The translations under genes were made by a program, and so were the position numbers. This document shows positions 4,879 through 30,025 of a stretch of 64,000 bases of DNA, in pieces. Below the pieces are notes generated by a model. That model was not told where the DNA came from and searched no databases. It saw only the letters and a list, made by a program, of their open reading frames with translations. The stretch comes from Tessaracoccus sp. OH4464_COT-324 (lineage in GTDB: Bacteria; Actinomycetota; Actinomycetes; Propionibacteriales; Propionibacteriaceae), in contig NZ_RQYZ01000017.1 of NCBI RefSeq assembly GCF_003932855.1, positions 1 to 64,000 on the forward strand, read 5' to 3'. How positions within the stretch are numbered: the stretch's first letter is position 1; each line of letters begins with the position of its first letter.

Positions 4879-5440
4879 GCTGCGACTCCGCCTCGCGTGC
4901 GGCCGGGGAGTCGGCCCGACGGCTCCCGGCGCTGCGTTTGCTCCGCGCTCCGCTGGCCTCAAGGGCGGCCAGCCAGCGCAGCTCTGCTTCGCAGCTGAAG
5001 ATGTGGTTGAGCAGCACCAGGCGGGCGGTTTGTTCGTCGTCGGAAACCGTGCGCAGCGCGCGGGTGAGGTCGTGCAGCGTGCCTTGGGTGGCCGTGCGCT
5101 GGCGGGCGATGAGCCGTCGGAAATCCACCCCGGGGTCCGCCGACGCGAGCGCGAATTTGATGACCAACTCATCGCGACTCTCCCGCAGGCGCACGACGGG
5201 CGTTGCCCACCACGCGCGCAGCTCCTCCCGCCCCGCGGGCGTGATCACCCAGCGCACGGGCTCCACGTCGCCCTCCTCGGCGACGAGTCCGTCGCGCTCC
5301 AGACGCCGCAACGTCGTCGAAACCTGGCCGACGTTGAGCGGCCAGGTTTGGTTGGTCGAGGCGTCGAATGCTTTCTTGAGCCGGTAGGCGCTCATCTGCT
5401 CGCGCGCCAGCAGGGCCAGCAGGGCGTGCTTCACGGACAT
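4865..5440 (-). CDS. PadR-family transcriptional regulator
   Basis: This 191-residue protein has the PadR architecture: an N-terminal winged helix (residues 1-80, with SVKHALLALLA at the start and LRRLERDGLV in the wing region), then a helical dimerisation region with many arginines and leucines. PadR proteins are usually repressors, and many control the ABC transporter gene beside them. I chose ATG 5440 because GGAGGT sits five bases upstream; the TTG twelve bases further up lies on that ribosome site. The palindrome at 5458-5489, just upstream and over a possible -10 box on this strand, is the obvious autoregulatory site. The last codons overlap the ATPase start by 14 nt. Confidence 0.9.
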   Translation of the reverse strand: MSVKHALLALLAREQMSAYRLKKAFDASTNQTWPLNVGQVSTTLRRLERDGLVAEEGDVEPVRWVITPAGREELRAWWATPVVRLRESRDELVIKFALASADPGVDFRRLIARQRTATQGTLHDLTRALRTVSDDEQTARLVLLNHIFSCEAELRWLAALEASGARSKRSAGSRRADSPAAREAESQHAGA

Positions 5441-5457
5441 CGTGACCTCCAAGATGC

Positions 5458-5489
5458 GGTTATCGAGTAACTATAGTTACGGAGTAACC
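5458..5489. promoter_or_regulatory. Probable PadR operator
   Basis: A perfect 14-bp dyad, GTAACTATAGTTAC, occupies 5467-5480 and is flanked by an outer GGTTA (5458-5462) and TAACC (5485-5489) pair. It lies 18-49 bases upstream of the padR ATG and overlaps a minus-strand TATAGT that could be the -10 box. Long AT-rich dyads of this kind are typical PadR sites. It is also within 80 bases of the likely cas promoter, so one site could influence both operons. Confidence 0.75.
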
Positions 5490-5523
5490 ATCATTCAAGG
5501 GACACACCAACCTGGCGAAGCCG

Positions 5524-5529
5524 TAGACT
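5524..5529 (+). promoter_or_regulatory. Candidate -10 box of the cas operon
   Basis: TAGACT at 5524-5529 matches the actinobacterial -10 consensus and recurs before other genes in this window. No good -35 is seen (GACACA at 5501-5506 is 17 bases away). If used, transcription would start near 5536 and leave a leader of about 235 nt before cas3, including the repeat-like hairpin. Confidence 0.4.
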
Positions 5530-5597
5530 GACCCTGGGCGAGACCGCCCGAGCCGACCGACCGCTTGGGATGACCCGCTTGTAGCGTTTAGCTGCAC

Positions 5598-5625
5598 CTG
5601 CTCCCCGCCCCGGCGGGGATTCTCG
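5598..5625 (+). promoter_or_regulatory. Lone CRISPR-repeat-like hairpin in the cas leader
   Basis: These 28 bases fold as CTGCT, stem CCCCGC, loop CCCG, stem GCGGGG, tail ATTCTCG. The array repeat folds as GTGCT, CCCCAC, GCGA, GTGGGG, ATGATCC. Segment lengths (5+6+4+6+7) are identical. The fifth stem pair changed from A-U to G-C on both sides, a compensatory change. No U-tract follows, so it is a poor intrinsic terminator. It could be a Cas6e or Cascade binding site in the cas mRNA, a CreR-like guide precursor, or a relic of another I-E array; Cas6e recognition is inference. Confidence 0.65.
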
Positions 5626-5641
5626 CCCGCCACCTTCGGTA

Positions 5642-5659
5642 TTCATCAAACTTTATGAA
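5642..5659. promoter_or_regulatory. Imperfect palindrome upstream of cas3
   Basis: TTCAT-C-AAA-C-TTT-ATGAA is a dyad with one unpaired base, in the AT-rich part of the cas leader about 110 bases before cas3. It may be an operator or a weak mRNA hairpin. No matching regulator is identified. Confidence 0.35.
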
Positions 5660-5674
5660 GCTTGTTGCGTTTAG

Positions 5675-10228
<4,554 letters not shown>

Positions 10229-10236
<8 letters not shown>

Positions 10237-10834
10237 TGATTTCTCAATCAAACGCTTCGTCAACAGCAAGATCAGAGGTCTCGGCGGCAGCGACCCAAGC
10301 AACATCTCGCCCACCAACCGAGCGCTCCTCGCTCAACTGAGGCAATCGATCTCCGCCGAGCCGGGCACCGTTCCCGCGGTGTGGTCCGCAACGCTGGAGG
10401 GGTTGCCCGACTTCGAGGGCGAAAGCTACCGGCTGCGGGTGGAGCGAGCCGTCCACATGGTGCTCACCCAATTTGCGATGCATCAACAATCACGAAGCGA
10501 AGCGATGCACAAAGAGGGGATTCCCTTCGGACAAGCAGTCCGTCAGCTTGCCTACCGCATGGACAAGGAACGCATGATGGAAACCCCCATCTACAAGCGT
10601 TTCACCGCCATGTGCCTGTCTACTTCCATCCCCGGCCTGGCCGCCCATGCCCGAGGCATCATCTCTCAGCTGAGATCCGAAAAGATTCCGTTCGACTATG
10701 CGCAGTTTGCGCAGGATCTTCTTGATTTCCAGCAAGCTAACAAGACCCGCGCCGTAATTCGACGCTGGGGTCGAGACTTCAGCCGAGTCACTAAATCAGA
10801 TAACGAGAACATCACCGAAGGAGATTCAGAATGA
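10229..10834 (+). CDS. cse2: Cascade small subunit Cse2 (CasB, Cas11)
   Basis: Cse2 is a 201-residue helical protein, two copies of which line the belly of Cascade and stabilise the displaced strand and the R-loop. It contains the expected basic surface segments, for example VRQLAYRMDKERMM near residue 107, and a C-terminal helical domain ending in IRRWGRDF. Identity rests on the operon position between cse1 and cas7, the length, and the family-like TNRALLAQLRQ motif near the N-terminus. It overlaps cse1 by 8 nt and cas7 by 4 nt. The ribosome site GGGAGAGGAGG lies inside the end of cse1. Confidence 0.92.
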
Positions 10835-11955
10835 CCACCTTTATCGAAATCCATGCCCTACAGACTGTTCCACCCTCGAACATCAACCGGGACGACACCG
10901 GCACCCCAAAGACCGCGGTGTACGGGGGAGTCGTACGTTCCAGGGTCTCCAGCCAGTCGTGGAAGCGGGCAATCCGAGAGGATTTTAACCGCACACTCGA
11001 CCCCAAGGACATCGGTACGCGCAGCCGGCTGCTCGTCGCGGAGATCGCCAAACTGATCGAGCAGCGCAACCCCGACCTGGGCGAGCGCGCGGAGGAGCTG
11101 GCGGTCGCGGCGATGGAGGCAGCAGGGTTCAAGAAACCTGTCCCCAAAGCCAAAAAGAAGGAAGAAGCGGGCACCCCTGAGACCGGGTACTTGGTGTTCT
11201 TGTCCCAGCGCCAACTCGATTCCCTCGCGGAAGCGGCCGTGGAGGCCAGCAGCGAGCCGAACCCACTTCAGGCCTTGAAGAACGCAAAGGTGAAGGACCT
11301 CGTTGACGCCGACCACTCCGTCGATATCGCGCTCTTCGGCCGGATGGTGGCCGACTCCGCCGACCTGAACGTCGAGGCGGCCTGCCAGGTCGCGCACGCG
11401 CTCAGCGTCCATGAGGCCACCCCGGAGTACGACTTCTACACAGCTGTTGACGACACGCGCAAGCGCGACGAGGATGCCGAGGACGCAGGCGCAGGCATGA
11501 TGGGCACGATCGGTTTCACGTCATCGACGCTCTATCGCTACGCGGCAGTCAACGTGGATCAACTCACCGAGAACCTCGGCAACAACGCTGCTGTCCAGAA
11601 GGCTGTCGAGGCTTTCCTGCGCAGTTTCGTCGCCGCCATTCCGAGCGGAAAGCAGAACTCCATGGCACACGGCACACGCCCCGCAGCCGTTCTGGTCACC
11701 GTGGCCGAGGGCCAGCCCACCAACCTGGTCGGAGCTTTCGAGGCACCAGTGGCCTCACGGAAGGGTCACCTTGAGCCGGCCGTGTCCAAGCTCGCCCAGC
11801 ACGCGCAAGAGGTGTTCGGGGTTTGGCGCACCCCGAAGAGGGCGCTCGTCTCCGGCCTCCCCTCGGTGGTGGGCCCGCTCGCTGCGGTGGGCGAGACCGT
11901 CTCATTCGATGACGTTGTGTCCGCCGTTCTGGCGGAGATCTCGGAGTCAGCATGA
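10831..11955 (+). CDS. cas7: Cascade backbone Cas7 (Cse4, CasC)
   Basis: Cas7e is a RAMP-fold protein, six copies of which coat the crRNA spacer in Cascade. The 374-residue product starts with FIEIHALQTVPPSNINRDD, followed by TPKTAVYGGVVRSRVSSQSWKRA, the classic Cas7e N-terminal signature. The thumb and finger regions follow, with GTIGFTSSTLYRYAAVN near residue 225 and the late motif GKQNSMAHGTRPAAV near residue 273. An acidic and lysine-rich insert (residues 105-125) is somewhat longer than in the E. coli protein. It overlaps cse2 and cas5 by 4 nt each. Confidence 0.95.
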   Translation: MTTFIEIHALQTVPPSNINRDDTGTPKTAVYGGVVRSRVSSQSWKRAIREDFNRTLDPKDIGTRSRLLVAEIAKLIEQRNPDLGERAEELAVAAMEAAGFKKPVPKAKKKEEAGTPETGYLVFLSQRQLDSLAEAAVEASSEPNPLQALKNAKVKDLVDADHSVDIALFGRMVADSADLNVEAACQVAHALSVHEATPEYDFYTAVDDTRKRDEDAEDAGAGMMGTIGFTSSTLYRYAAVNVDQLTENLGNNAAVQKAVEAFLRSFVAAIPSGKQNSMAHGTRPAAVLVTVAEGQPTNLVGAFEAPVASRKGHLEPAVSKLAQHAQEVFGVWRTPKRALVSGLPSVVGPLAAVGETVSFDDVVSAVLAEISESA

Positions 11956-12680
11956 GCGTCCTCGTGCTGAGGCTTGCCGCGCCCCTGCAGAGCTGGGGCG
12001 CCGCCAGCCGCTTCACCCGGCGGGAGACGGAGAACATGCCCACCAAAAGCGGCATCCTCGGGCTCCTCGCTGCGGCAGATGGGAGGCGGCGTTCGGATCC
12101 CATCGAGGACATGCTCGGCCTCCAGCTTGCGGTGCGCACCGAGCAAAGCGGCGTGCTGCTGCGTGATTTTCACACAGCTCATCACCAGATCAAGGGGACC
12201 GCGATGCCCCTGACGGATCGTTTCTACTTGAGCGACGCTGTGTTCACTGCCTACATCGGCGGAAATGACGTACTGGTCGATTCCCTTGCGGGTGCCCTGG
12301 AGAACCCTGCTTTCCCGCTGTTCTTCGGCCGACGATCGTGCGTCCCGACGGGTCGAATTGTCCAGGATGTCGTCGAAGGGAACGTCGCCGAAACGGCGCT
12401 CAGCTACCCGTGGTGCCCCGGTTACTCCGGGCGACGTCGAGCCCGCTGGTCCGGTACCGTCTCGCTACCAGTCCAAGCGGATTCGGTGGTGTACCCGGAA
12501 TTGATCGCCAATCGCGAGTTGAACGATGTGCCCATCTCTTGGGATGGAAAACATCGCCAATACAGGAGCAGGCCTGTCGTCGAAACCTACGCCACTCTGC
12601 CCACAGGTAATGAAGACCCTGCCGCACAGAAATCTGTCGGGCATGACCCCTTGGCAACCTTGATCGGAGTTCAAAAGTGA
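11952..12680 (+). CDS. cas5: Cascade subunit Cas5e (CasD)
   Basis: Cas5e binds the 5' handle of the crRNA and caps the Cas7 filament. The 242-residue protein begins MSVLVLRLAAPLQSWG, the nearly invariant Cas5 N-terminal strand, then RFTRRETENMPTKSGILGLLAAADGRRR, the family's conserved helix region. It also carries FFGRRSCVPTGRI near residue 125. Because the array repeat leaves an unusual ATGATCC tail, this subunit should recognise that handle. It overlaps cas7 and cas6e by 4 nt each. Confidence 0.94.
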   Translation: MSVLVLRLAAPLQSWGAASRFTRRETENMPTKSGILGLLAAADGRRRSDPIEDMLGLQLAVRTEQSGVLLRDFHTAHHQIKGTAMPLTDRFYLSDAVFTAYIGGNDVLVDSLAGALENPAFPLFFGRRSCVPTGRIVQDVVEGNVAETALSYPWCPGYSGRRRARWSGTVSLPVQADSVVYPELIANRELNDVPISWDGKHRQYRSRPVVETYATLPTGNEDPAAQKSVGHDPLATLIGVQK

Positions 12681-13312
12681 TTCTCACCCGGACGCTACTG
12701 AATATTCGACGCCCCGGAGCCAGGAAACTGCTCGGGTCCCCACAAGCCATGCACGCAGCGGTGGAAGCCGGTTTCCCCACTTCTCCGACCACCGGGCGAT
12801 CGCTCTGGCGTGTCGACCTAGACGACCCGGTGCGCCCAACCCTGTACGTGCTCAGCCCCACGTCGCCTGACTTCACGCACATAGAGGAACAGGCGGGATG
12901 GCCATCTCAGCCCACGACGGATTCTCTCCCCTACTCTCCGCTACTCGACTCGCTGAAGCCTGGGCAGGTCTGGGCTTTCCGCGTAAAGGTAAACCCCACC
13001 CACCGGGTGAAACTGGATGGCAAGTCGAAAATTCTTGCTCACAAGACCGCACAGCATCAGATGCGCTGGCTGCTCGAACGGCAAGAAGCTCTCGGGGTTT
13101 CCTTGGGCTCGGAAAGCGAGCCGAGTTTTCGGCTCAGTCGGCGGGAGACCATCCGATTCCGCCGGGGAGGGATGCAGGTTACGCTCGGGACTGCGCTCTT
13201 CGATGGGCTTCTTGAGATTCGCGACCCGGGAAAGTTTCGCTCATCTCTGCTTGAAGGGATCGGGCGTGCCAAGGGCTACGGTTGCGGCCTCTTGACTTTG
13301 GCAAAACCATGA
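12677..13312 (+). CDS. cas6e: crRNA endoribonuclease Cas6e (Cse3, CasE)
   Basis: Cas6e cuts the repeat hairpin at the 3' base of its stem and stays bound to the 3' end of the mature crRNA. The 211-residue protein has two ferredoxin-like halves. His26 in SPQAMHAAVEAGFP matches the position of the general catalytic histidine of the family, and the C-terminus carries the glycine-rich loop GIGRAKGYGCG. Its substrate here should be the CCCCAC-GCGA-GTGGGG hairpin of the array, and possibly the repeat-like hairpin in the cas leader. The stop overlaps the cas1 ATG as ATGA. Confidence 0.94.
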   Translation: MILTRTLLNIRRPGARKLLGSPQAMHAAVEAGFPTSPTTGRSLWRVDLDDPVRPTLYVLSPTSPDFTHIEEQAGWPSQPTTDSLPYSPLLDSLKPGQVWAFRVKVNPTHRVKLDGKSKILAHKTAQHQMRWLLERQEALGVSLGSESEPSFRLSRRETIRFRRGGMQVTLGTALFDGLLEIRDPGKFRSSLLEGIGRAKGYGCGLLTLAKP

Positions 13313-14241
13313 TTCCTGGTGCTGCTCCGCCAAAGTCAAAACAACTGCTCAGGGTGGAGGACAGGGCCACCTTCCTCCACCTTGAGCGGTGCTTGGTCAA
13401 TCGCGACTCCAACGCGATCACCGCAACAGATAAAAATGGTGTAGTTCACATCCCCGCGGCAACATTGTGTACCGTGCTCTTGGGGCCGGGAACTCGGATA
13501 ACCCACCATGCGATGATGTTGCTCGCCCAGTGCGGCGTAACTGTAGTGTGGGTGGGCGAGAAGGGTGTTCGATACTACGCACACGGAGAGCCGCTGGCCA
13601 AGAAAACTGCCCTCCTTGAGGCGCAGGCCAAGGCGGTGAGCAACACGCGCGCCCGTCTCGCGGTGGCCAGAAAAATGTATGAGCAGCGCTTCCCGGATGA
13701 AGTCGTCGAGGGGCTGACCATGCAACAGTTGCGTGGCCGCGAGGGCGCAAGAGTTCGCTCAATCTATCGCTCGGAATCAGCACGAACAGGCGTAGCCTGG
13801 GGTAAGCGCTCGTATGATCCGGAGCACTTCGACGATTCTGACGCAATCAACCAGGCCCTGTCAGCAGCCCATGCATGCCTGTACGGCGTGGTTCATGCGA
13901 CGGTGGTTGGGTTGGGCTGCTCCCCTGGCCTCGGGTTCATCCACACTGGCCATTCACGAGCCTTTGTGTATGACATCGCCGACCTCTACAAGGCGGAGTT
14001 CACAATACCGATAGCCTTCGACGTAGTGGCTTCTGGAACGACCGATGTAGGAGCAGACACCCGACGTGCGGTAAGGGACTCCATGCGTGAGGGTCGAGTC
14101 GTAGAGCAGTGTGTCCGGGATGTGAAGCGCCTGCTTCTGCCCGAGGAAGAACCCTCATACGACTTCAACGTGGTCTACCTCTGGGATGAGGAAGTCGGGG
14201 CCGTTTCCGGCGGGGTCGACTACACCGAGGTCGACTTCTAA
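13309..14241 (+). CDS. cas1: CRISPR integrase Cas1 (type I-E)
   Basis: Cas1 forms the Cas1-Cas2 integrase that inserts new spacers at the leader-repeat junction. The ATG at 13309 overlaps the cas6e stop and gives 310 residues; the TTG at 13282 would only add nine residues that duplicate cas6e coding sequence. Metal-ligand residues are present: Glu145 in RGREGARV, His215 in HTGHSRAF, and the Asp pair at 222 and 225 in YDIADLYK. All are intact, so spacer acquisition should be possible. The stop TAA shares one base with the cas2 ATG. Confidence 0.95.
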   Translation: MIPGAAPPKSKQLLRVEDRATFLHLERCLVNRDSNAITATDKNGVVHIPAATLCTVLLGPGTRITHHAMMLLAQCGVTVVWVGEKGVRYYAHGEPLAKKTALLEAQAKAVSNTRARLAVARKMYEQRFPDEVVEGLTMQQLRGREGARVRSIYRSESARTGVAWGKRSYDPEHFDDSDAINQALSAAHACLYGVVHATVVGLGCSPGLGFIHTGHSRAFVYDIADLYKAEFTIPIAFDVVASGTTDVGADTRRAVRDSMREGRVVEQCVRDVKRLLLPEEEPSYDFNVVYLWDEEVGAVSGGVDYTEVDF

Positions 14242-14630
14242 TGATCACTCTCGTACTGAGCAAAGTTCCTCGCGGGTTACGCGGACACCTGACCAAGTGG
14301 CTCATGGAGGCGGCCCCAAACGTTTTCGTCGGATCGCTCCCTGCACGGGTTCGGGACGAGCTCTGGGACATAGTTCAGGACGGCTTGGAGGGAGGAACCG
14401 CGCTTCTGGTCTACAGCGCACGAAACGAGCAAGGCTTCGCAGTGCGTAACGCTGGACACGCCTGGCAACCCATCGACCTCGATGGGCTAGTCGTCCTCCG
14501 CAGACCAGCCGCCAACGACACCAGCCGCCCGGAAGAGAGACTGCCCATGCCGAGAGCCGCGAGACTCGGCTGGCTCCACGCGCAGAGCCTCAAACGAAAC
14601 CCAAAACACGAAACCCGCGAAACAAACTGA
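14241..14630 (+). CDS. cas2: Cas2 (type I-E) with C-terminal extension
   Basis: Cas2e is the structural partner of Cas1 in spacer integration. The first 90 or so residues match the compact I-E fold (MITLVLSKVPRGLRGHLTKW, then WDIVQDGLEGG and a beta strand GTALLVYSA). At 129 residues it is longer than the E. coli protein of about 94. The extra tail from about residue 100 is basic and ends in Lys, Arg and Thr codons just before the array leader. No DnaQ domain is fused. The tail's coding DNA probably also supplies part of the functional leader, because only 44 bases separate the stop from the first repeat. Confidence 0.93.
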   Translation: MITLVLSKVPRGLRGHLTKWLMEAAPNVFVGSLPARVRDELWDIVQDGLEGGTALLVYSARNEQGFAVRNAGHAWQPIDLDGLVVLRRPAANDTSRPEERLPMPRAARLGWLHAQSLKRNPKHETRETN

Positions 14631-14674: not shown

Positions 14675-17600
14675 GTGCTCCCCACGCGAGTGGGGATGAT
14701 CCCTGGAGACCGTGTCCAAGCAGGTCCTCGAGGCCGTGCTCCCCACGCGAGTGGGGATGATCCAACGTGCACGTGGTCGAGGTGACGGTCGCTGACGTGC
14801 TCCCCACGCGAGTGGGGATGATCCGGTGACGTCGGTCAGCTTGAAGGTGAAGGACGAGTGCTCCCCACGCGAGTGGGGATGATCCTACCCAGACCTACGT
14901 TGCGTCGCCGTTTAGCCGGTGCTCCCCACGCGAGTGGGGATGATCCGCCAGCCTCCGCTGCCAGCCGCAAGATGATCTGGTGCTCCCCACGCGAGTGGGG
15001 ATGATCCTCCGTCGATGGTGTCGCGTGCGCTGTTCAGGCCGTGCTCCCCACGCGAGTGGGGATGATCCCACCATCTCATAGAAAGAAAGCCTTAATGCCA
15101 GGTGCTCCCCACGCGAGTGGGGATGATCCTACGCACGGCTAGGATGGCGGTTTTGCCGGCCAGTGCTCCCCACGCGAGTGGGGATGATCCCGCAAAGAGC
15201 CACTTTGTGTCAGCCTATTGCAGTGTGCTCCCCACGCGAGTGGGGATGATCCCACATCCGCCTGGCAGCCCCGTGAAGCCGACCAGTGCTCCCCACGCGA
15301 GTGGGGATGATCCGGAGTAGAGGTGCTAGCCGCACTCCCCGCCGCCGTGCTCCCCACGCGAGTGGGGATGATCCCGGCGCAGCCGCAGCCGGTGCGGGGG
15401 CCGGGGTGTGCTCCCCACGCGAGTGGGGATGATCCCCCCCGAGACCCGATGGCCGCGCTCAAGATCTAGTGCTCCCCACGCGAGTGGGGATGATCCGTGG
15501 GTTCAAACATGGTCGTAATCTGTGTGTTCGTGCTCCCCACGCGAGTGGGGATGATCCTCGCCAAGCATCGACTGGTGACCTGTCAAACCGGTGCTCCCCA
15601 CGCGAGTGGGGATGATCCCCAGAGCGCCCTGACCGGAAACCACCCCCACTCGTGCTCCCCACGCGAGTGGGGATGATCCACTCGGGTTTGGGTGTCGGCG
15701 TCGAGGCCGGCGGTGCTCCCCACGCGAGTGGGGATGATCCTGGGGGGCGTCTCAGCAAAACGGCAGACGAGCCGTGCTCCCCACGCGAGTGGGGATGATC
15801 CTGATCGCGTCACGGCGGGCCATGGCCTCGTATCGTGCTCCCCACGCGAGTGGGGATGATCCCCAGCCGGTGTCCACGGGGCACATCTGCTTGGCGTGCT
15901 CCCCACGCGAGTGGGGATGATCCCTCTGCCGGCGAGGGTCCGCGCACGCTCGGGCCGTGCTCCCCACGCGAGTGGGGATGATCCGGTCATTCCATGTGGC
16001 CGGGCCGTCGAGGCCCAGTGCTCCCCACGCGAGTGGGGATGATCCTAGTCACGGGGGTCGAGGCGGCTTCTGAGGGCAGTGCTCCCCACGCGAGTGGGGA
16101 TGATCCCCCCCCTCGGGGGTTGCGCACTGTATATGGATCGTGCTCCCCACGCGAGTGGGGATGATCCGGTTGAGCGCTGCCGAAGCCTGGACGACCTAGC
16201 GTGCTCCCCACGCGAGTGGGGATGATCCGGCCTTGGTTGACGGGCTGGTCGACGCGGGCGTGTGCTCCCCACGCGAGTGGGGATGATCCCCTGACCAGCG
16301 CCAACCTGCGCGGCGCCAACCTGTGCTCCCCACGCGAGTGGGGATGATCCTGAGCGCCTCCGAAGTGCTGCGGCAGGTCGAGGGTGCTCCCCACGCGAGT
16401 GGGGATGATCCTGGCGGACACGATTTGTGGCATGATCGTCGCGGGTGCTCCCCACGCGAGTGGGGATGATCCGGCACGGCCCGCAACGGTGAGGGCGGGA
16501 CGGACGTGCTCCCCACGCGAGTGGGGATGATCCCGAGGACGTACGGCGTGTCATCGACGCCTGCTGGGTGCTCCCCACGCGAGTGGGGATGATCCCCGTG
16601 CACCGCCGACATCACGGCCGCGCGCGGCGTGCTCCCCACGCGAGTGGGGATGATCCCAGAAGAGCCCCCTGTACACCATGCGCCCTCCAGTGCTCCCCAC
16701 GCGAGTGGGGATGATCCCCGCACGCCCCCATGCCAGAAAAGACCGACCCAGTGCTCCCCACGCGAGTGGGGATGATCCTATCTTCGAAGCGCTAGCCTCC
16801 CTCACCGGTGCGTGCTCCCCACGCGAGTGGGGATGATCCGGCGTGCTCCGTGGCGAGATGTTCCAAGACTTCGTGCTCCCCACGCGAGTGGGGATGATCC
16901 CTGGAATCCCGGCCTCCGTATGGGAGTCCGAACGTGCTCCCCACGCGAGTGGGGATGATCCTGTGTCAGGGTGGCGCACGGGTATTCGTGGCCGGTGCTC
17001 CCCACGCGAGTGGGGATGATCCCACGCCGAAGAGGGAGCCGCTCTGAGCTTCCGGGTGCTCCCCACGCGAGTGGGGATGATCCGCGACTCGAAGTAGTGA
17101 ACGGCGCTCTCGACCTGTGCTCCCCACGCGAGTGGGGATGATCCGGAGCCAGCGGCCGACGCCCTCTACGGCGTCAGGTGCTCCCCACGCGAGTGGGGAT
17201 GATCCCGGGAGGGCAAGGAGTCCGCCGACGGATTCAGCGTGCTCCCCACGCGAGTGGGGATGATCCTCTTGCATAGCCACATTTGTACTGCATTGCAAGG
17301 TGCTCCCCACGCGAGTGGGGATGATCCCTGCGCTTGCGGGCAGCTGAGGTCAAGGCCGAGGTGCTCCCCACGCGAGTGGGGATGATCCTTGCAGGATGGG
17401 GGTCATACCCCGAGATGGTGAGTGCTCCCCACGCGAGTGGGGATGATCCTATGTGGCGCGCCATCCAGCTGTCCCCCGCCACGTGCTCCCCACGCGAGTG
17501 GGGATGATCCGTAGGCAAATGGGGCGTCCAGGGGGCCCTCCTCGTGCTCCCCACGCGAGTGGGGATGATCCGAACGCCAAGACCGACACCAAGCAGCTCC

Positions 17601-20600
17601 AGGCGTGCTCCCCACGCGAGTGGGGATGATCCGAGCACCGCCGTATCGAACTGGAACGCCTGGACGTGCTCCCCACGCGAGTGGGGATGATCCGGCTAAA
17701 AAATGAACGTCATCTCTAGCGTCGGAGTGCTCCCCACGCGAGTGGGGATGATCCCATCCAGATGGTGCGCGTGCCGTGGTCGGTCAGGTGCTCCCCACGC
17801 GAGTGGGGATGATCCCAAACCGCCCCCCTCAAGCTCAGCAACTACACTGTGCTCCCCACGCGAGTGGGGATGATCCGGCCGGGGGCAGGAGAGAAAAGGA
17901 GGCCGAGATGTGCTCCCCACGCGAGTGGGGATGATCCAGTCGGCTGCTGGGCCGGCACCCTCGCCGACCTGGTGCTCCCCACGCGAGTGGGGATGATCCC
18001 GAGCGCCGACCCGAGATGGGAAACCCGCGAGGGTGCTCCCCACGCGAGTGGGGATGATCCCCGCGAGCGGGGTAGCGAGCATGGTTGCATCAGGTGCTCC
18101 CCACGCGAGTGGGGATGATCCTGGGAGGCTCCCGAGACTGGCGCCCAGTCGATCGTGCTCCCCACGCGAGTGGGGATGATCCGCAGCGGGGCATCACGGA
18201 GTCCGCCCTTAGTGAGTGCTCCCCACGCGAGTGGGGATGATCCTGTCGAGCGGGCCCCGACTGCCTCGCTCATGTGGTGCTCCCCACGCGAGTGGGGATG
18301 ATCCCTCCGGCACTAAAATTTCTTGGGCTGGCAAGAAGTGCTCCCCACGCGAGTGGGGATGATCCGGCTCAGGACCCTAACCGCCCCCTCGGAGGTGCGT
18401 GCTCCCCACGCGAGTGGGGATGATCCCCATTCCCACCGTTAAAGCTGCGACTATTGAGCGTGCTCCCCACGCGAGTGGGGATGATCCGCCGCTGCTGGTG
18501 GTGCCGCTGATTCTCGGATCGTGCTCCCCACGCGAGTGGGGATGATCCCAAATGAGTCCTCGCTTCGTCACTAGCCCCGCCGTGCTCCCCACGCGAGTGG
18601 GGATGATCCCCTGGCCCACGCCAACCTGTCGGACACCAACCTGTGCTCCCCACGCGAGTGGGGATGATCCCACGGTGTCAAGGGCTCCGATGGACTGCTC
18701 CAGGTGCTCCCCACGCGAGTGGGGATGATCCGTCCACACTGCTCCGAGCCGTCAACATCGACCGGTGCTCCCCACGCGAGTGGGGATGATCCCATGATCT
18801 TGGCGTCAATCTCGACGGTGCGGTCGTGCTCCCCACGCGAGTGGGGATGATCCGCCCTCATCCACGCCGTAAACATGGGCCTAGCCGTGCTCCCCACGCG
18901 AGTGGGGATGATCCTTGGTCGTCGGGCGGCATCGTGTCGACATACGAGTGCTCCCCACGCGAGTGGGGATGATCCGAGTGACCCAGACGCTCGAATTCGA
19001 TATCGCACGTGCTCCCCACGCGAGTGGGGATGATCCGACGCCACCCATTTCGCCCATGTCAACTTGGGCGTGCTCCCCACGCGAGTGGGGATGATCCGAG
19101 CCAATCACAGCGGTGATCCAGGACATGGACGTGCTCCCCACGCGAGTGGGGATGATCCGCCTTCTCGGCCTGACGAAGGGCCTTCTTGGTCGTGCTCCCC
19201 ACACGAGTGGGGATGATCCGAGCCGACGGCGGGGGTGCCTGCAAGCGAGTCAGTGCTCCCCACGCGAGTGGGGATGATCCGCTGGCGGCGACGGCCGGGA
19301 CTATTCTTGAGCGGTGCTCCCCACGCGAGTGGGGATGATCCCCCGCTTGTGGTGGTACCGCTGATTCGCGGGTCGTGCTCCCCACGCGAGTGGGGATGAT
19401 CCTGCGACTCGGGTCGCGGCGGCTTTCCCGAGTGCGTGCTCCCCACGCGAGTGGGGATGATCCAATATCCGTCCCCGCTCCGCCTCGACGGCGACAGTGC
19501 TCCCCACGCGAGTGGGGATGATCCGTCCTCGCCGCGGCCACCCTGTCTATCTCCTACGTGCTCCCCACGCGAGTGGGGATGATCCTTTCTGGAGCAGCGC
19601 GGGCGAGACGGGCTAATCGTGCTCCCCACGCGAGTGGGGATGATCCTGTGGCTTGGCGGCCTTTATGGCCGACACGGCCGTGCTCCCCACGCGAGTGGGG
19701 ATGATCCCGGGCGCCGATCTGATGGACGCCGACCTGCGCGGTGCTCCCCACGCGAGTGGGGATGATCCGATCATGTTCTGCGGTAAGGATGTTGCTGAAG
19801 CGTGCTCCCCACGCGAGTGGGGATGATCCGGCCGCCGTCGAAGAGCACCGCCGTATCGAACTGGTGCTCCCCACGCGAGTGGGGATGATCCGACCCGCGT
19901 CACGTCCGCCAACCACGTCCGCAAGTGCTCCCCACGCGAGTGGGGATGATCCCTGGGAGAGGGATCTTGGTCCCTCCCTACTTGTGTGCTCCCCACGCGA
20001 GTGGGGATGATCCCTCTTCGAGCTGCTCCCAGGCCGCACCGAAGCAGTGCTCCCCACGCGAGTGGGGATGATCCCACTTCGTCTTCTTCCGAAGTCCAAG
20101 TATTCTTGTGCTCCCCACGCGAGTGGGGATGATCCGATGAACTCGTGCGGGTAGTCGGCTTCATCGTCGTGCTCCCCACGCGAGTGGGGATGATCCCCAC
20201 GAGAAGGTCGACCCGATCGCAGCAAGGGCGTGCTCCCCACGCGAGTGGGGATGATCCTCCGCCGACCTGATCGGCGACACAGAGCGAGCGGTGCTCCCCA
20301 CGCGAGTGGGGATGATCCTATCTTCCTATGGAAGATAGTCCGTACCTGACTGTGCTCCCCACGCGAGTGGGGATGATCCGGCGCGCGCCGGGATCGCCTG
20401 GCTGGTTTTCGGGTGCTCCCCACGCGAGTGGGGATGATCCGTCTGCCGAGCACGCCACGGGGCGTGCGCTTGAGTGCTCCCCACGCGAGTGGGGATGATC
20501 CCTGTCCTCGCCATCCAACAGCAGATCAGAGACCGTGCTCCCCACGCGAGTGGGGATGATCCCTCAGCAACTCCAAATCGAGAAGGGAGACTGACAGTGC

Positions 20601-23600
20601 TCCCCACGCGAGTGGGGATGATCCCGAGTTGCCACTTCTCCGCGAAATCGGCAGTCTGTGCTCCCCACGCGAGTGGGGATGATCCTATCGATATCCGATC
20701 ACCCTCGCCGCGCCACTCGTGCTCCCCACGCGAGTGGGGATGATCCGTGACCGACACGATCCGCGTCGGCACCGGCGCGGTGCTCCCCACGCGAGTGGGG
20801 ATGATCCGAAACCGGCCCCCACTAGGCAAAACGCCTGGCGGTGCTCCCCACGCGAGTGGGGATGATCCAGGCGGTGAGTAGTGAGCGACACGGAGCACTG
20901 GGTGCTCCCCACGCGAGTGGGGATGATCCCGTGACGTGCGCATGCACCCTGCTGGCGGCCCTGTGCTCCCCACGCGAGTGGGGATGATCCGCTCCAGGCT
21001 GCCGAGGCCTTCGCCATCGCCGAGTGCTCCCCACGCGAGTGGGGATGATCCGTCTTTGGTCACCCTCTCGAAAGACGGCGAGCAGTGCTCCCCACGCGAG
21101 TGGGGATGATCCCTGGGAGCGCGTTTCCTCGGCGGGGGAGGCAGCGTGCTCCCCACGCGAGTGGGGATGATCCGTACAAATTCAACCCGAACTCCGACGC
21201 TGGCGTGTGCTCCCCACGCGAGTGGGGATGATCCCAGCGCGTAGAGCCCGTTCACCACCACAGGGGTGTGCTCCCCACGCGAGTGGGGATGATCCGCTCT
21301 CACCCATGTCCGAGCTCGTGCAGCCTGCGTGCTCCCCACGCGAGTGGGGATGATCCTGTCCGCGAGCTCCATCACTCATCTCCCGAGCGGTGCTCCCCAC
21401 GCGAGTGGGGATGATCCGAGCGCGGCAAGCGGTCAGCAGTCGTCGTTGACGTGCTCCCCACGCGAGTGGGGATGATCCGTTTTACTCATAAGAGCAAAAG
21501 AGGCCCGGCAGGTGCTCCCCACGCGAGTGGGGATGATCCGTGGGCTGGGATAGGCTGGGATGAGCTCTCATTGTGCTCCCCACGCGAGTGGGGATGATCC
21601 GGACCTGACCATGACCATCATCGACAGCTTCGAGTGCTCCCCACGCGAGTGGGGATGATCCCTGCGCCTCGGCGTGTACTCCGCGGATCTGCCCGTGCTC
21701 CCCACGCGAGTGGGGATGATCCGTCGGTCTTGGTCAGCGGGGTGAGCTCGGCTGAGTGCTCCCCACGCGAGTGGGGATGATCCCTGCATCTGTCCCGACA
21801 GGCATACCTGCCAACGGTGCTCCCCACGCGAGTGGGGATGATCCGGTCACGATCCAGCTCCTTGACGGTACAGAAACGTGCTCCCCACGCGAGTGGGGAT
21901 GATCCGCACCAGCCGCCTCCGGGGCCTGCTGCAAGCCGGTGCTCCCCACGCGAGTGGGGATGATCCCACTGGCCTGAGCAACGCGCGCGACACCATCAAG
22001 TGCTCCCCACGCGAGTGGGGATGATCCAACCTGTACCGCGCCAACCTGCACCGCGCTACCCTGTGCTCCCCACGCGAGTGGGGATGATCCAGGTCGTGGC
22101 GGTGGGTCACGGTCGGTTCTCCTGTGCTCCCCACGCGAGTGGGGATGATCCGGCCGCCGATCTGGCGGCTGGGGGGTTCAGTAAGTGCTCCCCACGCGAG
22201 TGGGGATGATCCTTGGGATAAGGGTTGGGGCCGTTAGGTCGTCTAGTGCTCCCCACGCGAGTGGGGATGATCCGTGCTGGTGGTGGAGGTTCCGCAGGGC
22301 GTTGGCGGTGCTCCCCACGCGAGTGGGGATGATCCCGCCCCGCCCCCATCCTTGTTTCCCGCCTGACCGTGCTCCCCACGCGAGTGGGGATGATCCCGCT
22401 AACGTCGATGTCGGCCGCTTCAAGGTCGGGTGCTCCCCACGCGAGTGGGGATGATCCTGTGCCCGCCGAGTACGCCAGGCATATTGAGAAGTGCTCCCCA
22501 CGCGAGTGGGGATGATCCTCCATACCCCCATTGGGGTGGCGTAGGCGCCCCGTGCTCCCCACGCGAGTGGGGATGATCCCGTCGTCGAGATCCACCAGGA
22601 GAAGGTGGAGGTGTGCTCCCCACGCGAGTGGGGATGATCCTCTCGACCGGCGGACCGTCGTCGCGCGCCACCAGTGCTCCCCACGCGAGTGGGGATGATC
22701 CGCAGACCCTCTTGCTGTGGTCGCTTCGGACTGGAGTGCTCCCCACGCGAGTGGGGATGATCCCGCTACCCTGCGCGGCGCCAACCTGTCGGACGCGTGC
22801 TCCCCACGCGAGTGGGGATGATCCGTCGCAAGTGTTGCCGTCCGTCCGCTACCCAGAGTGCTCCCCACGCGAGTGGGGATGATCCTTGATCACAACAGAA
22901 GATGAGCCTGCCGACTCGGTGCTCCCCACGCGAGTGGGGATGATCCCAGTCGAGAAGATCCGAGTTTATGGGGATCAGCGTGCTCCCCACGCGAGTGGGG
23001 ATGATCCACCGAAATCAACACCGCCTGGCCGCGCCGATCGGTGCTCCCCACGCGAGTGGGGATGATCCGGCGTTAGCGAGGCCCCGTCTCAGCTGCCGGT
23101 TGTGCTCCCCACGCGAGTGGGGATGATCCTCTCTGACACTTCGTCGCGGCCACTCCTGACCAGTGCTCCCCACGCGAGTGGGGATGATCCTTTCTAGGAA
23201 CTCCTCAGCGTCAATCTCGGGCAGTGCTCCCCACGCGAGTGGGGATGATCCCATGGGACAGACGGCCCCGGGACATGGGACACAGTGCTCCCCACGCGAG
23301 TGGGGATGATCCCGCCACTTGATCATCAAGTCGGGCTCGGTTGCCGTGCTCCCCACGCGAGTGGGGATGATCCGGCTCGACATGGTGCCGCAGGCGCTCA
23401 GCCAGCGTGCTCCCCACGCGAGTGGGGATGATCCGCCCTCCTCCGTACCCCGGAGCTAGGGGGGTCCGTGCTCCCCACGCGAGTGGGGATGATCCCGTCG
23501 CCCGGCACATATGCGGCCTCAGCCGAAAGTGCTCCCCACGCGAGTGGGGATGATCCCCCCACTCGCCCCAACTGGCGGCGCCCAGCCGAGTGCTCCCCAC

Positions 23601-24443
23601 GCGAGTGGGGATGATCCGGGCGCTTTCTCGTTCAGGGCCGGGATGGCGGGGTGCTCCCCACGCGAGTGGGGATGATCCCTTCCCGCCGGGGGTCTCCGTG
23701 ATGAACTTCGAGTGCTCCCCACGCGAGTGGGGATGATCCTGTCACGCGCCGGGATGCCCGCGTCGAGGGCGAGTGCTCCCCACGCGAGTGGGGATGATCC
23801 CTCGGCATCGGCCCCGTCGTCGAGGACGTCGTGGTGCTCCCCACGCGAGTGGGGATGATCCCAGCACGCCGGTCGATTTCTCGGTCTCTTCGAAGTGCTC
23901 CCCACGCGAGTGGGGATGATCCGGACGGACTTCTCTCCGATTTGGACGCAGGTCTGTGCTCCCCACGCGAGTGGGGATGATCCTCTTGAGTTGGCTCCGC
24001 ATCGGTGGAAGAGAGTGTGCTCCCCACGCGAGTGGGGATGATCCCGACTTGCGGCGCGGAGCAAATCCAAATCTAGCGTGCTCCCCACGCGAGTGGGGAT
24101 GATCCCTACCTCGGCGTTACGCGCCAGACGGTCGGCACGTGCTCCCCACGCGAGTGGGGATGATCCTTGGGGCCCGGCTTCCTCAAGTTTGGGGAGACCG
24201 TGCTCCCCACGCGAGTGGGGATGATCCTCACCGGCGCAATCTGGGTGGGCCCCCCGATGGGTGCTCCCCACGCGAGTGGGGATGATCCTTTGTGTAGTCG
24301 CTACCGACGAATGACCGAGCAGTGCTCCCCACGCGAGTGGGGATGATCCTCACGCGCCGGGTGAGCTGGACCCACCCCGTGGGTGCTCCCCACGCGAGTG
24401 GGGATGATCCGCATTGGCATGTCGCGGCACGAAAGGCTGGGAT

Positions 24444-24517
24444 GTGCTCCCCACGCGAGTGGGGATGATCCGCGGGGATGATCCGCTCGCGGTAGATCCC
24501 CGTCGGAGAGGGGGTGG
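24444..24517 (+). repeat. Repeat with duplicated 3' tail plus its spacer
   Basis: After the repeat at 24444-24471, the 13 bases GGGGATGATCCGC occur twice in tandem, which stretches the repeat-to-repeat distance from 61 to 74. The remaining spacer, 24485-24517, is a normal 33 nt. Slippage in the repeat tail is the simplest cause. The first copy still has a full hairpin, so processing should leave a 13-nt longer 5' region on this crRNA. Confidence 0.8.
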
Positions 24518-27354
24518 GTGCTCCCCACGCGAGTGGGGATGATCCGTGACTCGCCCCCGACGGGGCATCAACTGACCCGTGCTCCCCACGCGAGTGGGGA
24601 TGATCCTCCGAGGCCTTCCTGCAGGGCAGGCAGGTTGTCGTGCTCCCCACGCGAGTGGGGATGATCCTACCGGGCTGGCCTCTCTGGTGGCCAGCCTGTC
24701 GTGCTCCCCACGCGAGTGGGGATGATCCCGCCGCCCTCGGCGGGCGTCGGGTGTCCTTGATGTGCTCCCCACGCGAGTGGGGATGATCCTACCGACTCAG
24801 TCCGCAGGGCCGACGCATGTACGTGCTCCCCACGCGAGTGGGGATGATCCATACAGAACCATCCGCGACGGAGACGACCGCATGTGCTCCCCACGCGAGT
24901 GGGGATAATCCGCACGTCGCACCCTACGCCAACATCAACCGTGGGTGCTCCCCACGCGAGTGGGGATGATCCGCATGCGGTAGATCCCCGCCGGAGAGGG
25001 GGTGGGTGCTCCCCACGCGAGTGGGGATGATCCGGCTATCAGCGGGAACCGCACAACCAAGGCCGTGTGCTCCCCACGCGAGTGGGGATGATCCGAAGCA
25101 GCCCGGTGCCCACACGGCGCTGAACGCGTGCTCCCCACGCGAGTGGGGATGATCCCTTGGTCGCCCCGTCCGCCGAAGCGGCAGAAGCGTGCTCCCCACG
25201 CGAGTGGGGATGAATCGATCGCTGGGAAAGCTACGCATGCCTGACCGGAGTGCTCCCCACGCGAGTGGGGATGATCCATTTTCCGTTCGATGGTGGTTAG
25301 GCGGTCGTGGGTGCTCCCCACGCGAGTGGGGATGATCCGACTATTCCGAGTGGCTGGGCAGCTCCGATGGCGTGCTCCCCACGCGAGTGGGGATGATCCG
25401 CAGCCTCTGTGACGATAGAGACCTGCCCGGACGTGCTCCCCACGCGAGTGGGGATGATCCGATTTGCAGCCACGCGCGAGGCGCGAGGGTGTCGTGCTCC
25501 CCACGCGAGTGGGGATGATCCCCTGACGGACGCCGACCTGCCCCGCGCCAACCTGTGCTCCCCACGCGAGTGGGGATGATCCCGCGTACTTCGTCCCGAC
25601 GTGGCAGGGGTGGCGGTGCTCCCCACGCGAGTGGGGATGATCCGAGCTAGCCCGATCCGTGGGCTCCATCCGCGACGTGCTCCCCACGCGAGTGGGGATG
25701 ATCCCTATTCGTGCCGCTGAGTAGGCGGGCCAAGGAAGTGCTCCCCACGCGAGTGGGGATGATCCTAGGCTCTTGGCGGAGCTATTGCTTACGCGGTCGT
25801 GCTCCCCACGCGAGTGGGGATGATCCTGTGACCATACACGCCCCGACCCCAGGGCAGGTGTGCTCCCCACGCGAGTGGGGATGATCCGCCCATCGTCAAT
25901 GCCTGGCGCTGCGCCAACCCGTGCTCCCCACGCGAGTGGGGATGATCCTCTCGTGCTGTGCCACGGATCACACCTCCCAACGTGCTCCCCACGCGAGTGG
26001 GGATGATCCGCGCCTTGGCGGCGGCTTTTGCGCCAGCCACGAGTGCTCCCCACGCGAGTGGGGATGATCCGGCCATCGCAGCGGAGATCAGAGCCGCTGT
26101 AGCGTGCTCCCCACGCGAGTGGGGATGATCCGCCGCCCGGACGGCTTGGCGAGCAGGCCGGTCAGTGCTCCCCACGCGAGTGGGGATGATCCGGGAATCC
26201 CCACGGCGTGGCGTGCCAGCGTGGAGTGCTCCCCACGCGAGTGGGGATGATCCGCCGCGAAGGGGCTGATCCACCCCGACCACCTGGTGCTCCCCACGCG
26301 AGTGGGGATGATCCACACTGCTCACCGTTTCCGCGATCGGCCTGTCGGTGCTCCCCACGCGAGTGGGGATGATCCACGCCCTGGCCGGTCGCAGCAGTCA
26401 ACAACGACGTGCTCCCCACGCGAGTGGGGATGATCCGCCACCCCTGTGCTGCCCATCGAGTCCCCGGACGTGCTCCCCACGCGAGTGGGGATGATCCTTT
26501 CCGCATTTTCTGGCAGCCCTTCCGCAAGCTGTGCTCCCCACGCGAGTGGGGATGATCCCAGCTCGGCGTGACGAAGCTGCTCGGCTGCGACGTGCTCCCC
26601 ACGCGAGTGGGGATGATCCCCACCTGCCCCAGGTCCTCGCGCCAGGTGGCGAGTGCTCCCCACGCGAGTGGGGATGATCCGCTGATGGGTGCCCCATTTC
26701 GCCACCCCGAGGGGTGCTCCCCACGCGAGTGGGGATGATCCGCTGCTCAAACGGAAAGGGAAACAGCGGCAGCCGTGCTCCCCACGCGAGTGGGGATGAT
26801 CCTGATCTATCCGCCAAGGTGCAAAAGGCGTCCCCGTGCTCCCCACGCGAGTGGGGATGATCCGCCAGGGGGCAAGGATGGTCCGCGCCGATGCCATGTG
26901 CTCCCCACGCGAGTGGGGATGATCCGCCGGAAGCGGCGCCTCCCCGGCACGCCTTAGGGGTGCTCCCCACGCGAGTGGGGATGATCCGCCCTTGCGATCC
27001 ATCAGCGCGCAACTGCCGACGTGCTCCCCACGCGAGTGGGGATGATCCTGTGCGGCCTGCCACGCGGACTCCGACGAGGACGTGCTCCCCACGCGAGTGG
27101 GGATGATCCCTCGTAGGTGCCGCGCCCTTGCCGGTAGTCCTGGTGCTCCCCACGCGAGTGGGGATGATCCCGGTCACGTATGACCAGTTGGCGGCGCCGG
27201 TGCGGTGCTCCCCACGCGAGTGGGGATGATCCCAGAGACTCGGCTTCGGTGATGTAGTCGCGGGTGTGCTCCCCACGCGAGTGGGGATGATCCGAACTCC
27301 CGCAGGCTGGACCCCAATGGGATGCGGTGCTCCCCACGCGAGTGGGGATGATCC

Positions 27355-27442
27355 GTCGGCCTCGGGCAGCAGCAGGCCGGAGAAGCCGTGCTCCCCACGC
27401 GGATGATCCGTCGGCCTCGGGCAGCAGCAGGCCGGAGAAGCC
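27355..27442 (+). repeat. Duplicated spacer flanking a truncated repeat
   Basis: Spacers 27355-27387 and 27410-27442 are identical over 33 nt. Between them the repeat at 27388-27409 is only 22 nt, having lost GAGTGG, the 3' half of its hairpin. The damaged repeat cannot form the Cas6e stem, so this junction should not be cut and the two spacers would stay fused. Confidence 0.9.
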
Positions 27443-27784
27443 GTGCTCCCCACGCGAGTGGGGATGATCCGATCACCGCCTCCGTTGCCAAGCAAACCGC
27501 CGAGTGCTCCCCACGCGAGTGGGGATGATCCGTTATTAACATGATGGGAGAGTGAAAGTGGAAGGTGCTCCCCACGCGAGTGGGGATGATCCGCGGTAGC
27601 CGCCGAGGCGATGCAACAACAACCGGTGCTCCCCACGCGAGTGGGGATGATCCGTTGTTGACGACTGGGATGTTCTTGGGGGGCAGGTGCTCCCCACGCG
27701 AGTGGGGATGATCCTGGGACTCAGGATGGACCGTCGCAGCCCGCGTCGTGCTCCCCACACGAGTGGGGATGCTCCAGAGTCCGA

Positions 27785-27790
27785 TAGACT
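27785..27790 (+). promoter_or_regulatory. Candidate -10 box for the ASCH gene
   Basis: TAGACT lies six bases before the ATG at 27797, ten bases after the last main-array repeat. The spacing matches other apparently leaderless genes here. No -35 is evident, so read-through from the array is an alternative source of transcript. Confidence 0.4.
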
Positions 27791-27796
27791 GGCGAG

Positions 27797-28219
27797 ATGA
27801 AGGCTCTCACAGTGCGCTATCCTTGGGCACAATTTATCGCCGCTGGAGCGAAAACTGTCGAAAACCGCAATTGGCGCCCCGCATCTCTGCCTGCTCAGAT
27901 AGCCATCCACGCTGGGGTTGGGGCAGATCCCGTCCCGGGGGATATGGCTGCGCCGCCAAAGGATCGGCTAGGACAGGCGGTTGCCCTGGTAACCGTGGCC
28001 AGCTGCCATGCCCCCGGGACGGAATGTGGCGCGGCCTGCGCGGTTTGGGGCGATCCCGATTCTCGGTGGCACTGGGTACTGAGCGACATGAAGGAATTGC
28101 CCCCGGGTCCGAAGCTCCGCGGGCAGCTTGGCCTGTGGGATCTGTCGCTGCACGATATAACGGTCGCCCCGATGGTGGGCGCTCCCCACGCAAGTGAGGA
28201 TGATCCGTCGATAGGATAG
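27797..28219 (+). CDS. ASCH-domain protein inside the CRISPR locus
   Basis: The 140-residue product begins MKALTVRYPWAQFIAAGAK followed by TVENRNWRP, the classic start of ASCH (PUA-like) proteins, and continues with IAIHAG near residue 36 and GQLGLWDL near residue 109. ASCH domains bind RNA or modified nucleosides; some are nucleases or N4-acetylcytidine hydrolases. The domain ends near residue 115. The last dozen or so codons run through the degenerate repeat at 28179-28206, so the C-terminus (GAPHASEDDP) is repeat-derived. The gene starts 21 bases after the last main-array repeat and is followed by three divergent repeats, so it sits between the array body and its trailer. It is either cargo inserted in the old end of the array or a gene the array grew against. 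Confidence 0.8.
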   Translation: MKALTVRYPWAQFIAAGAKTVENRNWRPASLPAQIAIHAGVGADPVPGDMAAPPKDRLGQAVALVTVASCHAPGTECGAACAVWGDPDSRWHWVLSDMKELPPGPKLRGQLGLWDLSLHDITVAPMVGAPHASEDDPSIG

Positions 28220-28329
28220 AAGGGGAACTGATCCTCAACCGTGCTCCCCACGCGAGTGGGGATGGTTCGGCGATGCTCGCCGCCCGCAAGCGCATCACCC
28301 GGTGCTCCCCACGCAAGTGGGGATGGTTC
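28179..28329 (+). CRISPR. Trailer block of three degenerate repeats
   Basis: Repeats lie at 28179-28206 (GCGCT start, GCAAG loop, GTGAGG stem), 28241-28268 and 28302-28329 (both ending ATGGTTC instead of ATGATCC). Spacers of 34 and 33 nt separate them. They are in the same orientation as the main array and represent its oldest end. The shared ATGGTTC tail suggests an ancestral or different repeat variant. The first repeat has a broken stem pair and encodes the end of the ASCH ORF. Confidence 0.9.
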
Positions 28330-29646: not shown

Positions 29647-29820
29647 AGACTTTCCTTCCGTTAGTAACTTCAGATCCGCCCGAAGTTCTGGGACGGACCG
29701 CAAGAAAGACTAACAGCAGATCCGGCTCAGGGACAGGAGAACCGGCTGGAAGCCATCGGCCCCGCCCCAGACGCCCACCGGATGATGGGCTCAGAGGCAA
29801 CCACTGTTAAGCTGCACCCA

Positions 29821-29969
29821 GAAGCTGTATGTGCCACAGGCACGGGAACCCGGTGAGACTCCGGGGCTGACGCGCAGCGGTAACGGTGACGAGTCGACGA
29901 ATACGGCCACTGGGAGCCCCCGGGAAGGCAGTTGACGAGGATGATCCGAAGCCCGAAGACCACAGCTTC
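29821..29969 (+). ncRNA. Cobalamin (AdoCbl) riboswitch
   Basis: P1 is formed by GAAGCTGT (29821-29828) and ACAGCTTC (29962-29969), eight perfect pairs. Inside are the conserved cobalamin blocks in order: GGGAACCCGGTG with GACTCC, GGCTGACGCGCAGCGGT, GCCACTGG, GGGAAGGC, GATGATCCG, and a B12 box AGCCCGAAGACC. It lies about 55 nt upstream of btuC, so B12 binding probably hides the translation start or ends the transcript. A TGTTAA at 29805-29810 is a possible -10. Confidence 0.93.
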
Positions 29970-30025
29970 GCGGAGAGTTCGCATGAGGGCCTCGCGGTAA
30001 GGCTCGTGGATCGTGGAGTCACTTG

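Follow-up and report, generated by a model that had tools for sequence, protein, structure and literature searches.

A probable creR gene before cas3 in an actinobacterial type I-E CRISPR-Cas system, and its recurrence in related leaders

The repeat-like hairpin at positions 5598–5625 of the window (the whole stretch of 64,000 nucleotides analyzed here) is, on our reading of the sequence, the second repeat of a two-repeat mini-CRISPR and not a lone repeat, and the complete element is very probably the creR gene of the window's type I-E system, that is, a cas autorepressor of a published kind. The analysis itself shows the two repeats, the guide, its seed and PAM match, and selection on that match across genomes. 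CreRs are mini-CRISPR RNAs that regulate cas genes (Liu et al. 2023, doi 10.1016/j.chom.2023.08.005, as cited in PMC13131331, PMC12948488 and PMC12737573), and the account given in PMC13131331 attributes autorepression to them in types I-B, I-E and V-A. CreR of type I-E is already published, and the window's element would be a further example: in both, a mini-CRISPR stands beside the cas operon and carries a guide with limited complementarity to the cas promoter. A previously unexplained hairpin thereby becomes a complete regulatory unit, and a strict search places such units before cas3 in 34 of 226 leaders, showing that they recur in many actinobacterial type I-E systems.

The type I-E operon of the window extends from cas3 to cas2 and is followed on its 3' side by the CRISPR array, with the mini-CRISPR and its proposed target both lying upstream of cas3, as follows.

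5524..5529, + strand: TAGACT, putative -10 of the creR promoter, a TA...T box upstream of the handle
5549..5576, + strand: psiR1, the degenerate first repeat, with its 3' end GGGATGACCC retained and its position shared with relatives
5570..5577, + strand: AUGACCCG, the predicted 5' handle (8 nt) in the mature RNA, a role assigned by analogy with the array repeat (ATGATCC) and CreA RNAs (PMC8501985)
5578..5597, + strand: guide (psi-spacer), 20 nt, or 21 nt counting 5577
5598..5625, + strand: psiR2, the hairpin, of sequence CTGCTCCCCGCCCCGGCGGGGATTCTCG; predicted Cas6e cut at 5618/5619
5658..5660, + strand: target PAM AAG (AAN was required in the search)
5661..5674, + strand: guide target, 13/14 bases identical, with the mismatch at position 6
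5665..5670, + strand: TTGCGT, putative -35 of the cas promoter, within the target and 17 nt before TAATGT
5688..5693, + strand: TAATGT, putative -10 of the cas promoter, 27 nt past the target start
5771..8644, + strand: cas3, start at 5771
8641..14630, + strand: cse1-cse2-cas7-cas5-cas6e-cas1-cas2 (type I-E), assigned by Pfam
14675..28329, + strand: CRISPR array (repeat GTGCTCCCCACGCGAGTGGGGATGATCC), degenerate at its distal end

The array contains 215 core repeats from 14675 onward, and 200 of its 214 repeat intervals measure 61 nt, a period that implies spacers of 33 nt. Regex extraction of spacers gave the same 33-nt length in relatives (92/93 spacers in L024, 38/38 in L032 and 6/6 in L022); elsewhere it returned nothing or one to three stray values, with none for the window array.

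The hairpin itself is real, as the preliminary description had maintained. psiR2 folds into a 7-bp stem with a 4-nt loop, as does the array repeat, with closely similar folding energies (-13.8 vs -13.6 kcal/mol) that were equaled by only 5 and 3 of 200 shuffles, respectively. It shares 19/28 bases with the array repeat (15/21 over the first 21 nt), retaining TGCTCCCC and GGGGAT and replacing an A-U pair of the array stem by a compensatory G-C pair, whereas its tail, ATTCTCG, diverges from the array handle (4/7 bases equal); the two retained motifs, the pair change and the altered tail had been pointed out earlier, as had its position between the TAGACT box and the start of cas3. A search of the 2.76-Mb genome with the pattern TGCTCCCC-N8-GGGGAT gave 217 matches (100 of the places being listed) and none for the pattern read backwards, a total that is reached by adding up the 215 array repeats of the window, a variant at 28302, and psiR2. 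On the basis of this fold, 5618/5619 is the expected Cas6e cut site.

The earlier statement that there is no second repeat is, in turn, mistaken. Among relatives found through Cse1, those numbered L022–L027, L032 and L038 carry a two-repeat unit before cas3, composed of a worn first repeat that keeps its 3' end (GGGATGACCC or ATGATCC), a short spacer and a hairpin repeat, and it is this layout that led us to recognize psiR1 in the window. psiR1 agrees with the array repeat at only 13/28 positions, but these are distributed very unevenly, with 4/18 in the first 18 nt and 9/10 in the last 10. The position of psiR2 relative to the guide then implies that the hairpin forms the 3' handle, and not the 5' end, of the predicted guide RNA. 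The unit thus comprises one psi-spacer enclosed by two degenerate repeats, and it stands apart from the array, beside the cas operon. It resembles the array of the same locus in repeat fold, handle and orientation, yet differs from a canonical array in having a single spacer of 21 rather than 33 nt and repeats of limited identity (the 13/28 and 19/28 above).

The same architecture is found in two-repeat CreA genes, in which, according to PMC8501985 and PMC9458426, psiR1 is preserved over its last 8 nt and psiR2 over its first 22 nt. CreA and the window's unit have in common two divergent repeats, with the 5' handle retained in psiR1 and the 3' part in psiR2, and they also share a seed at positions 1–5 and 7–11 with tolerant positions 6 and 12. 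They differ in that CreA targets the promoter of a toxin gene whereas the window's guide targets a site before cas3, and in that the CreA examples compared here are haloarchaeal whereas the window holds an actinobacterial I-E system.

The guide CTTGTAGCGTTTAG pairs with CTTGTTGCGTTTAG at 5661–5674 through positions 1–5 and 7–14, with AAG adjoining. All 10 scored seed positions match at this site, which none of 2000 shuffled guides equaled, and when CTTGTNGCGTTTAG was sought genome-wide with at most one mismatch, it occurred only at 5578 and 5661. The target probably covers the cas3 promoter, for which TTGCGT and TAATGT are plausible elements. A sigma-70 consensus scan of 5440–5800 reported neither this pair nor TAGACT, and calling the target site a promoter rests instead on a -10 peak across leaders that is described below. 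The preliminary description had surmised a CreR-like guide precursor, and while the evidence supports this idea, the guide lies upstream of the hairpin (5578–5597) and not, as was proposed, at 5626–5658: the latter segment matches the promoter no better than chance (shuffles did as well in 740/2000 and 1812/2000 cases for two starts), and we have rejected it as the pseudo-spacer.

To place the element in a wider context, cas3 leaders were gathered by Cas3 searches and fetching of the corresponding stretches (an alignment-based search gave 80 loci). Removing 9 loci without a usable cas3 start, 1 that was too short, and 40 duplicates from 276 loci left 226 nonredundant leaders, made up of those of other genomes and the window's own. 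Guides were scored by their matches at positions 1–5 and 7–11 to a site following AAN, on either strand and at most 400 nt from cas3. A handle motif is present in 151/226 leaders and absent from the other 75, and 35 of the 151 score at least 9/10, or 34 once L311, in which two intact repeats matched each other, was dropped after scoring; the remaining 117 have no such match. When guides were instead paired with the leaders of other genomes, a score of 9 was reached in 13 of 6014 pairs and a score of 10 in none, corresponding to 0.33 expected. A looser seed test, at positions 1–5, 7 and 8, selected 35 of the 226 leaders (none dropped) vs 0.80 expected, and of 55 further leaders, held out and drawn from two other families, 37 carry the handle and 5 score at least 9, with 0.10 expected. 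The 34 matches are partly nonindependent, as some guides are near-copies of each other (L296 and L297, for example). In the window's genus, the unit is found in 7 of 12 genomes with a detected cse1, and the PAMs among the matches are AAG, AAC, AAT and AAA, the AAN form having been imposed by the search.

The guides differ between genomes, and, as the swapped-leader test indicates, each matches the promoter of its own genome but not those of the other genomes. We take this as evidence that the guide–promoter pairing is under selection, and it is also in this survey that the element displays the conservation in relatives on which the preliminary description had made its reading depend. The target lies on the + strand, downstream of the guide and 46–255 nt before cas3, in 29/34 units; in the other five, it is on the opposite strand (L076, L207, L285 and L291) or upstream of the guide (L071), and these units may act not on the cas3 promoter but on another promoter, or, for L207, the match may be due to chance.

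Identity between guide and target varies strongly with position in these 34 units. It is nearly complete at positions 1–5 (34, 33, 34, 34 and 34 units), drops to 7 at position 6, returns to 34 at both positions 7 and 8, and then takes values of 23, 32, 32 and 6 at positions 9–12 and of 27, 27, 21, 16, 19 and 9 at positions 13–18. As positions 6, 12 and 18 were left unscored, the low identity there is not produced by the choice of matches. Cascade flips out each sixth base, and minima every 6 nt fit this backbone. In the held-out guides, the mismatch that had been predicted for position 6 is found in only 3/5 cases, and one at position 12 in 4/5. CreA guides, according to PMC8501985, require positions 1–5 and 7–11, with changes at 6 or 12 being harmless. 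Because the matches hold pair by pair, natural sequences are enough to reveal the seed and flip rules of type I-E Cascade. We also observe that, of the 16 mismatches falling at scored positions, 11 are at position 9, the center of the second 5-nt segment.

Promoter-like boxes recur at two places in the leaders. Measured from the start of the target, 12 of the 30 + strand targets have a TA...T box at +27 (7 cases) or +28 (5 cases), compared with a mean of 0.46 per offset, and a further TA...T box is present 18–54 nt upstream of the handle in 24/34 units, vs 7/34 and 2/34 in control stretches further upstream. The exact hexamer TAGACT is found upstream of the handle in 5/34 units and in none in either control. 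Both patterns are consistent with a creR promoter upstream of a cas promoter that the guide would cover.

Taking these observations together, we propose a mechanism in which transcription, processing, binding, repression and both routes of relief are inferred. A promoter at TAGACT would yield a short RNA comprising psiR1, the 20-nt guide and psiR2, in which the last 8 nt of psiR1 would serve as the 5' handle, and Cas6e would bind the psiR2 hairpin and cut at 5618/5619. psiR1 has no recognizable Cas6e hairpin, so the 5' end of the RNA may stay unprocessed. The resulting RNA of about 49 nt would load Cascade, which would then bind the cas3 promoter at 5661–5674 through the seed and the AAG PAM, blocking cas3 and the downstream genes; with pairing limited to about 13 bases, the target would be repressed and not destroyed. 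Relief could come from array crRNAs that occupy Cascade, or from a phage inhibitor that disables it, and in either case cas expression would rise.

Three other explanations deserve consideration alongside the creR assignment, all of which we have rejected. The hairpin might act by itself as a Cas6e or Cascade binding site in the leader of the cas mRNA, repressing without a guide, as the preliminary description had also considered. With the stem and TGCTCCCC preserved, Cas6e binding to the hairpin is indeed probable, but the creR reading expects such binding too, and since the hairpin precedes the proposed cas promoter, mRNA made from that promoter would not contain it. A site of this kind cannot account for the guide–promoter match, and it also leaves unexplained the upstream handle and the recurrence in 34/151 leaders, making it a very improbable account. 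We judge it similarly improbable that the unit is what remains, without function, of an old array that had a spacer matching its own genome, an origin as an array relic having likewise been raised earlier. The repeats are degenerate, as a relic's would be, and array repeats adjoin the unit in L026, L047 and L141; yet a relic would not retain seed matches to its own promoter, pair by pair, across many genomes with differing guides, nor would it show the same tolerant guide positions in them. In L026 (positions 3324–4023 in the cas3 orientation), these array repeats lie immediately upstream of the creR-like unit, and the leaders of L047 and L141 (Enemella evansiae) are the same as that of L026. 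This adjacency suggests that creR-like units can originate from array ends.

The least credible of the three, to which we give hardly any weight, is a CreTA addiction module, whose guide would repress a small toxic RNA transcribed from the stretch between 5693 and cas3. The identical layout and seed rule of CreA speak for it, and there is a 10-codon open reading frame with an AGA codon at 5742–5774. Against it, cas3 is the sole gene in line with the targeted promoter. A tRNA-sequestering CreT has two consecutive rare codons (PMC8501985), and the 5742–5774 frame has no tandem rare codons, although CreTs of other kinds are not recognizable by sequence. In L023–L025, moreover, the corresponding ATG reads in frame into cas3, so that the 5742–5774 frame may encode a leader peptide or represent a former start of cas3 that has shifted. 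This frame, on the + strand with a single AGA, ends in a TGA that overlaps the cas3 start (ATGA).

Returning to the creR units, a length could be assigned to the psi-spacer in 33 of the 34 (by script in 32 and by eye in L253; L207, having no psiR2, was excluded), giving lengths of 21 (12 units), 22 (8), 31 (1), 33 (6), 34 (2), 35 (2), 39 (1) and 45 nt (1). In 30/33 cases, the length differs from 33 by a multiple of 6, or exceeds such a value by one, with 31, 35 and 35 lying off this grid. When these 33 units are placed on a Cas3 tree, separating 21–22 nt from the other lengths takes 9 changes, 7 of which are forced by well-supported branches, and the length classes show no clustering (as few changes suffice in 127 of 500 shuffles); the window (21 nt) and L043 (34 nt) are sisters, with support of 94/85. 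Length switches scattered in this way over the tree indicate that jumps of about 12 nt recur. The held-out units gave lengths of 21, 22, 21, 21 and 33 nt, all 5 falling on the grid predicted beforehand, where L325 is a close relative of L263 and psiR2 of L344 was set by eye.

One Cas7 subunit spans 6 nt of guide, and a guide of 21–22 nt would thus be two segments short. The length steps therefore suggest changes by entire Cas7 segments and a shortened Cascade that occurs naturally. We tentatively extend this to the proposal, which we hold with slightly less than even confidence, that I-E CreR lengths shift only by whole Cas7 segments (6 nt, and mostly 12), and that a short Cascade of about four Cas7 subunits instead of six runs cas autorepression. 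If true, the short Cascade would still have the length needed to occupy a promoter and block it while seldom licensing Cas3, and psi-spacer length would be a genetic setting that separates a regulator from an immune guide. Were the steps real, they would also provide a naturally truncated Cascade for repression, with bearing on how binding is separated from cutting and relevance to safe repressors built from native systems.

The natural 21–22 nt class falls in the same length range as short type I-B guides that have been engineered: in PMC10989794, spacers of 21–24 bp gave strong repression with no interference or priming, and a 20 bp spacer gave weaker repression. For type I-E, on the other hand, the title of Kuznedelov 2016 (cited in PMC10989794) describes E. 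coli Cascade with shortened spacers as capable of interference and priming, such that the published picture for shortened I-E guides is mixed. As short I-E guides perhaps still permit cutting, limited pairing may be the main safeguard of the target, and short guide length the second. Our literature search, the coverage of which excluded Liu et al. 2023, found no paper on CreR spacer lengths, and we thus do not claim that the steps are unreported.

Two further features were observed in the window downstream of the operon. Within the far end of the array, after the repeat at 27748, there is a 140-aa open reading frame on the + strand (27797–28219), flanked by degenerate repeats near 28180, 28241 and 28302; a Pfam search with this frame returned no family, and its N-terminal start may resemble that of ASCH-domain proteins. 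An Rfam search of the window gave a single match, a cobalamin riboswitch (RF00174) at 29808–29981 on the + strand, with a score of 81.2 bits.
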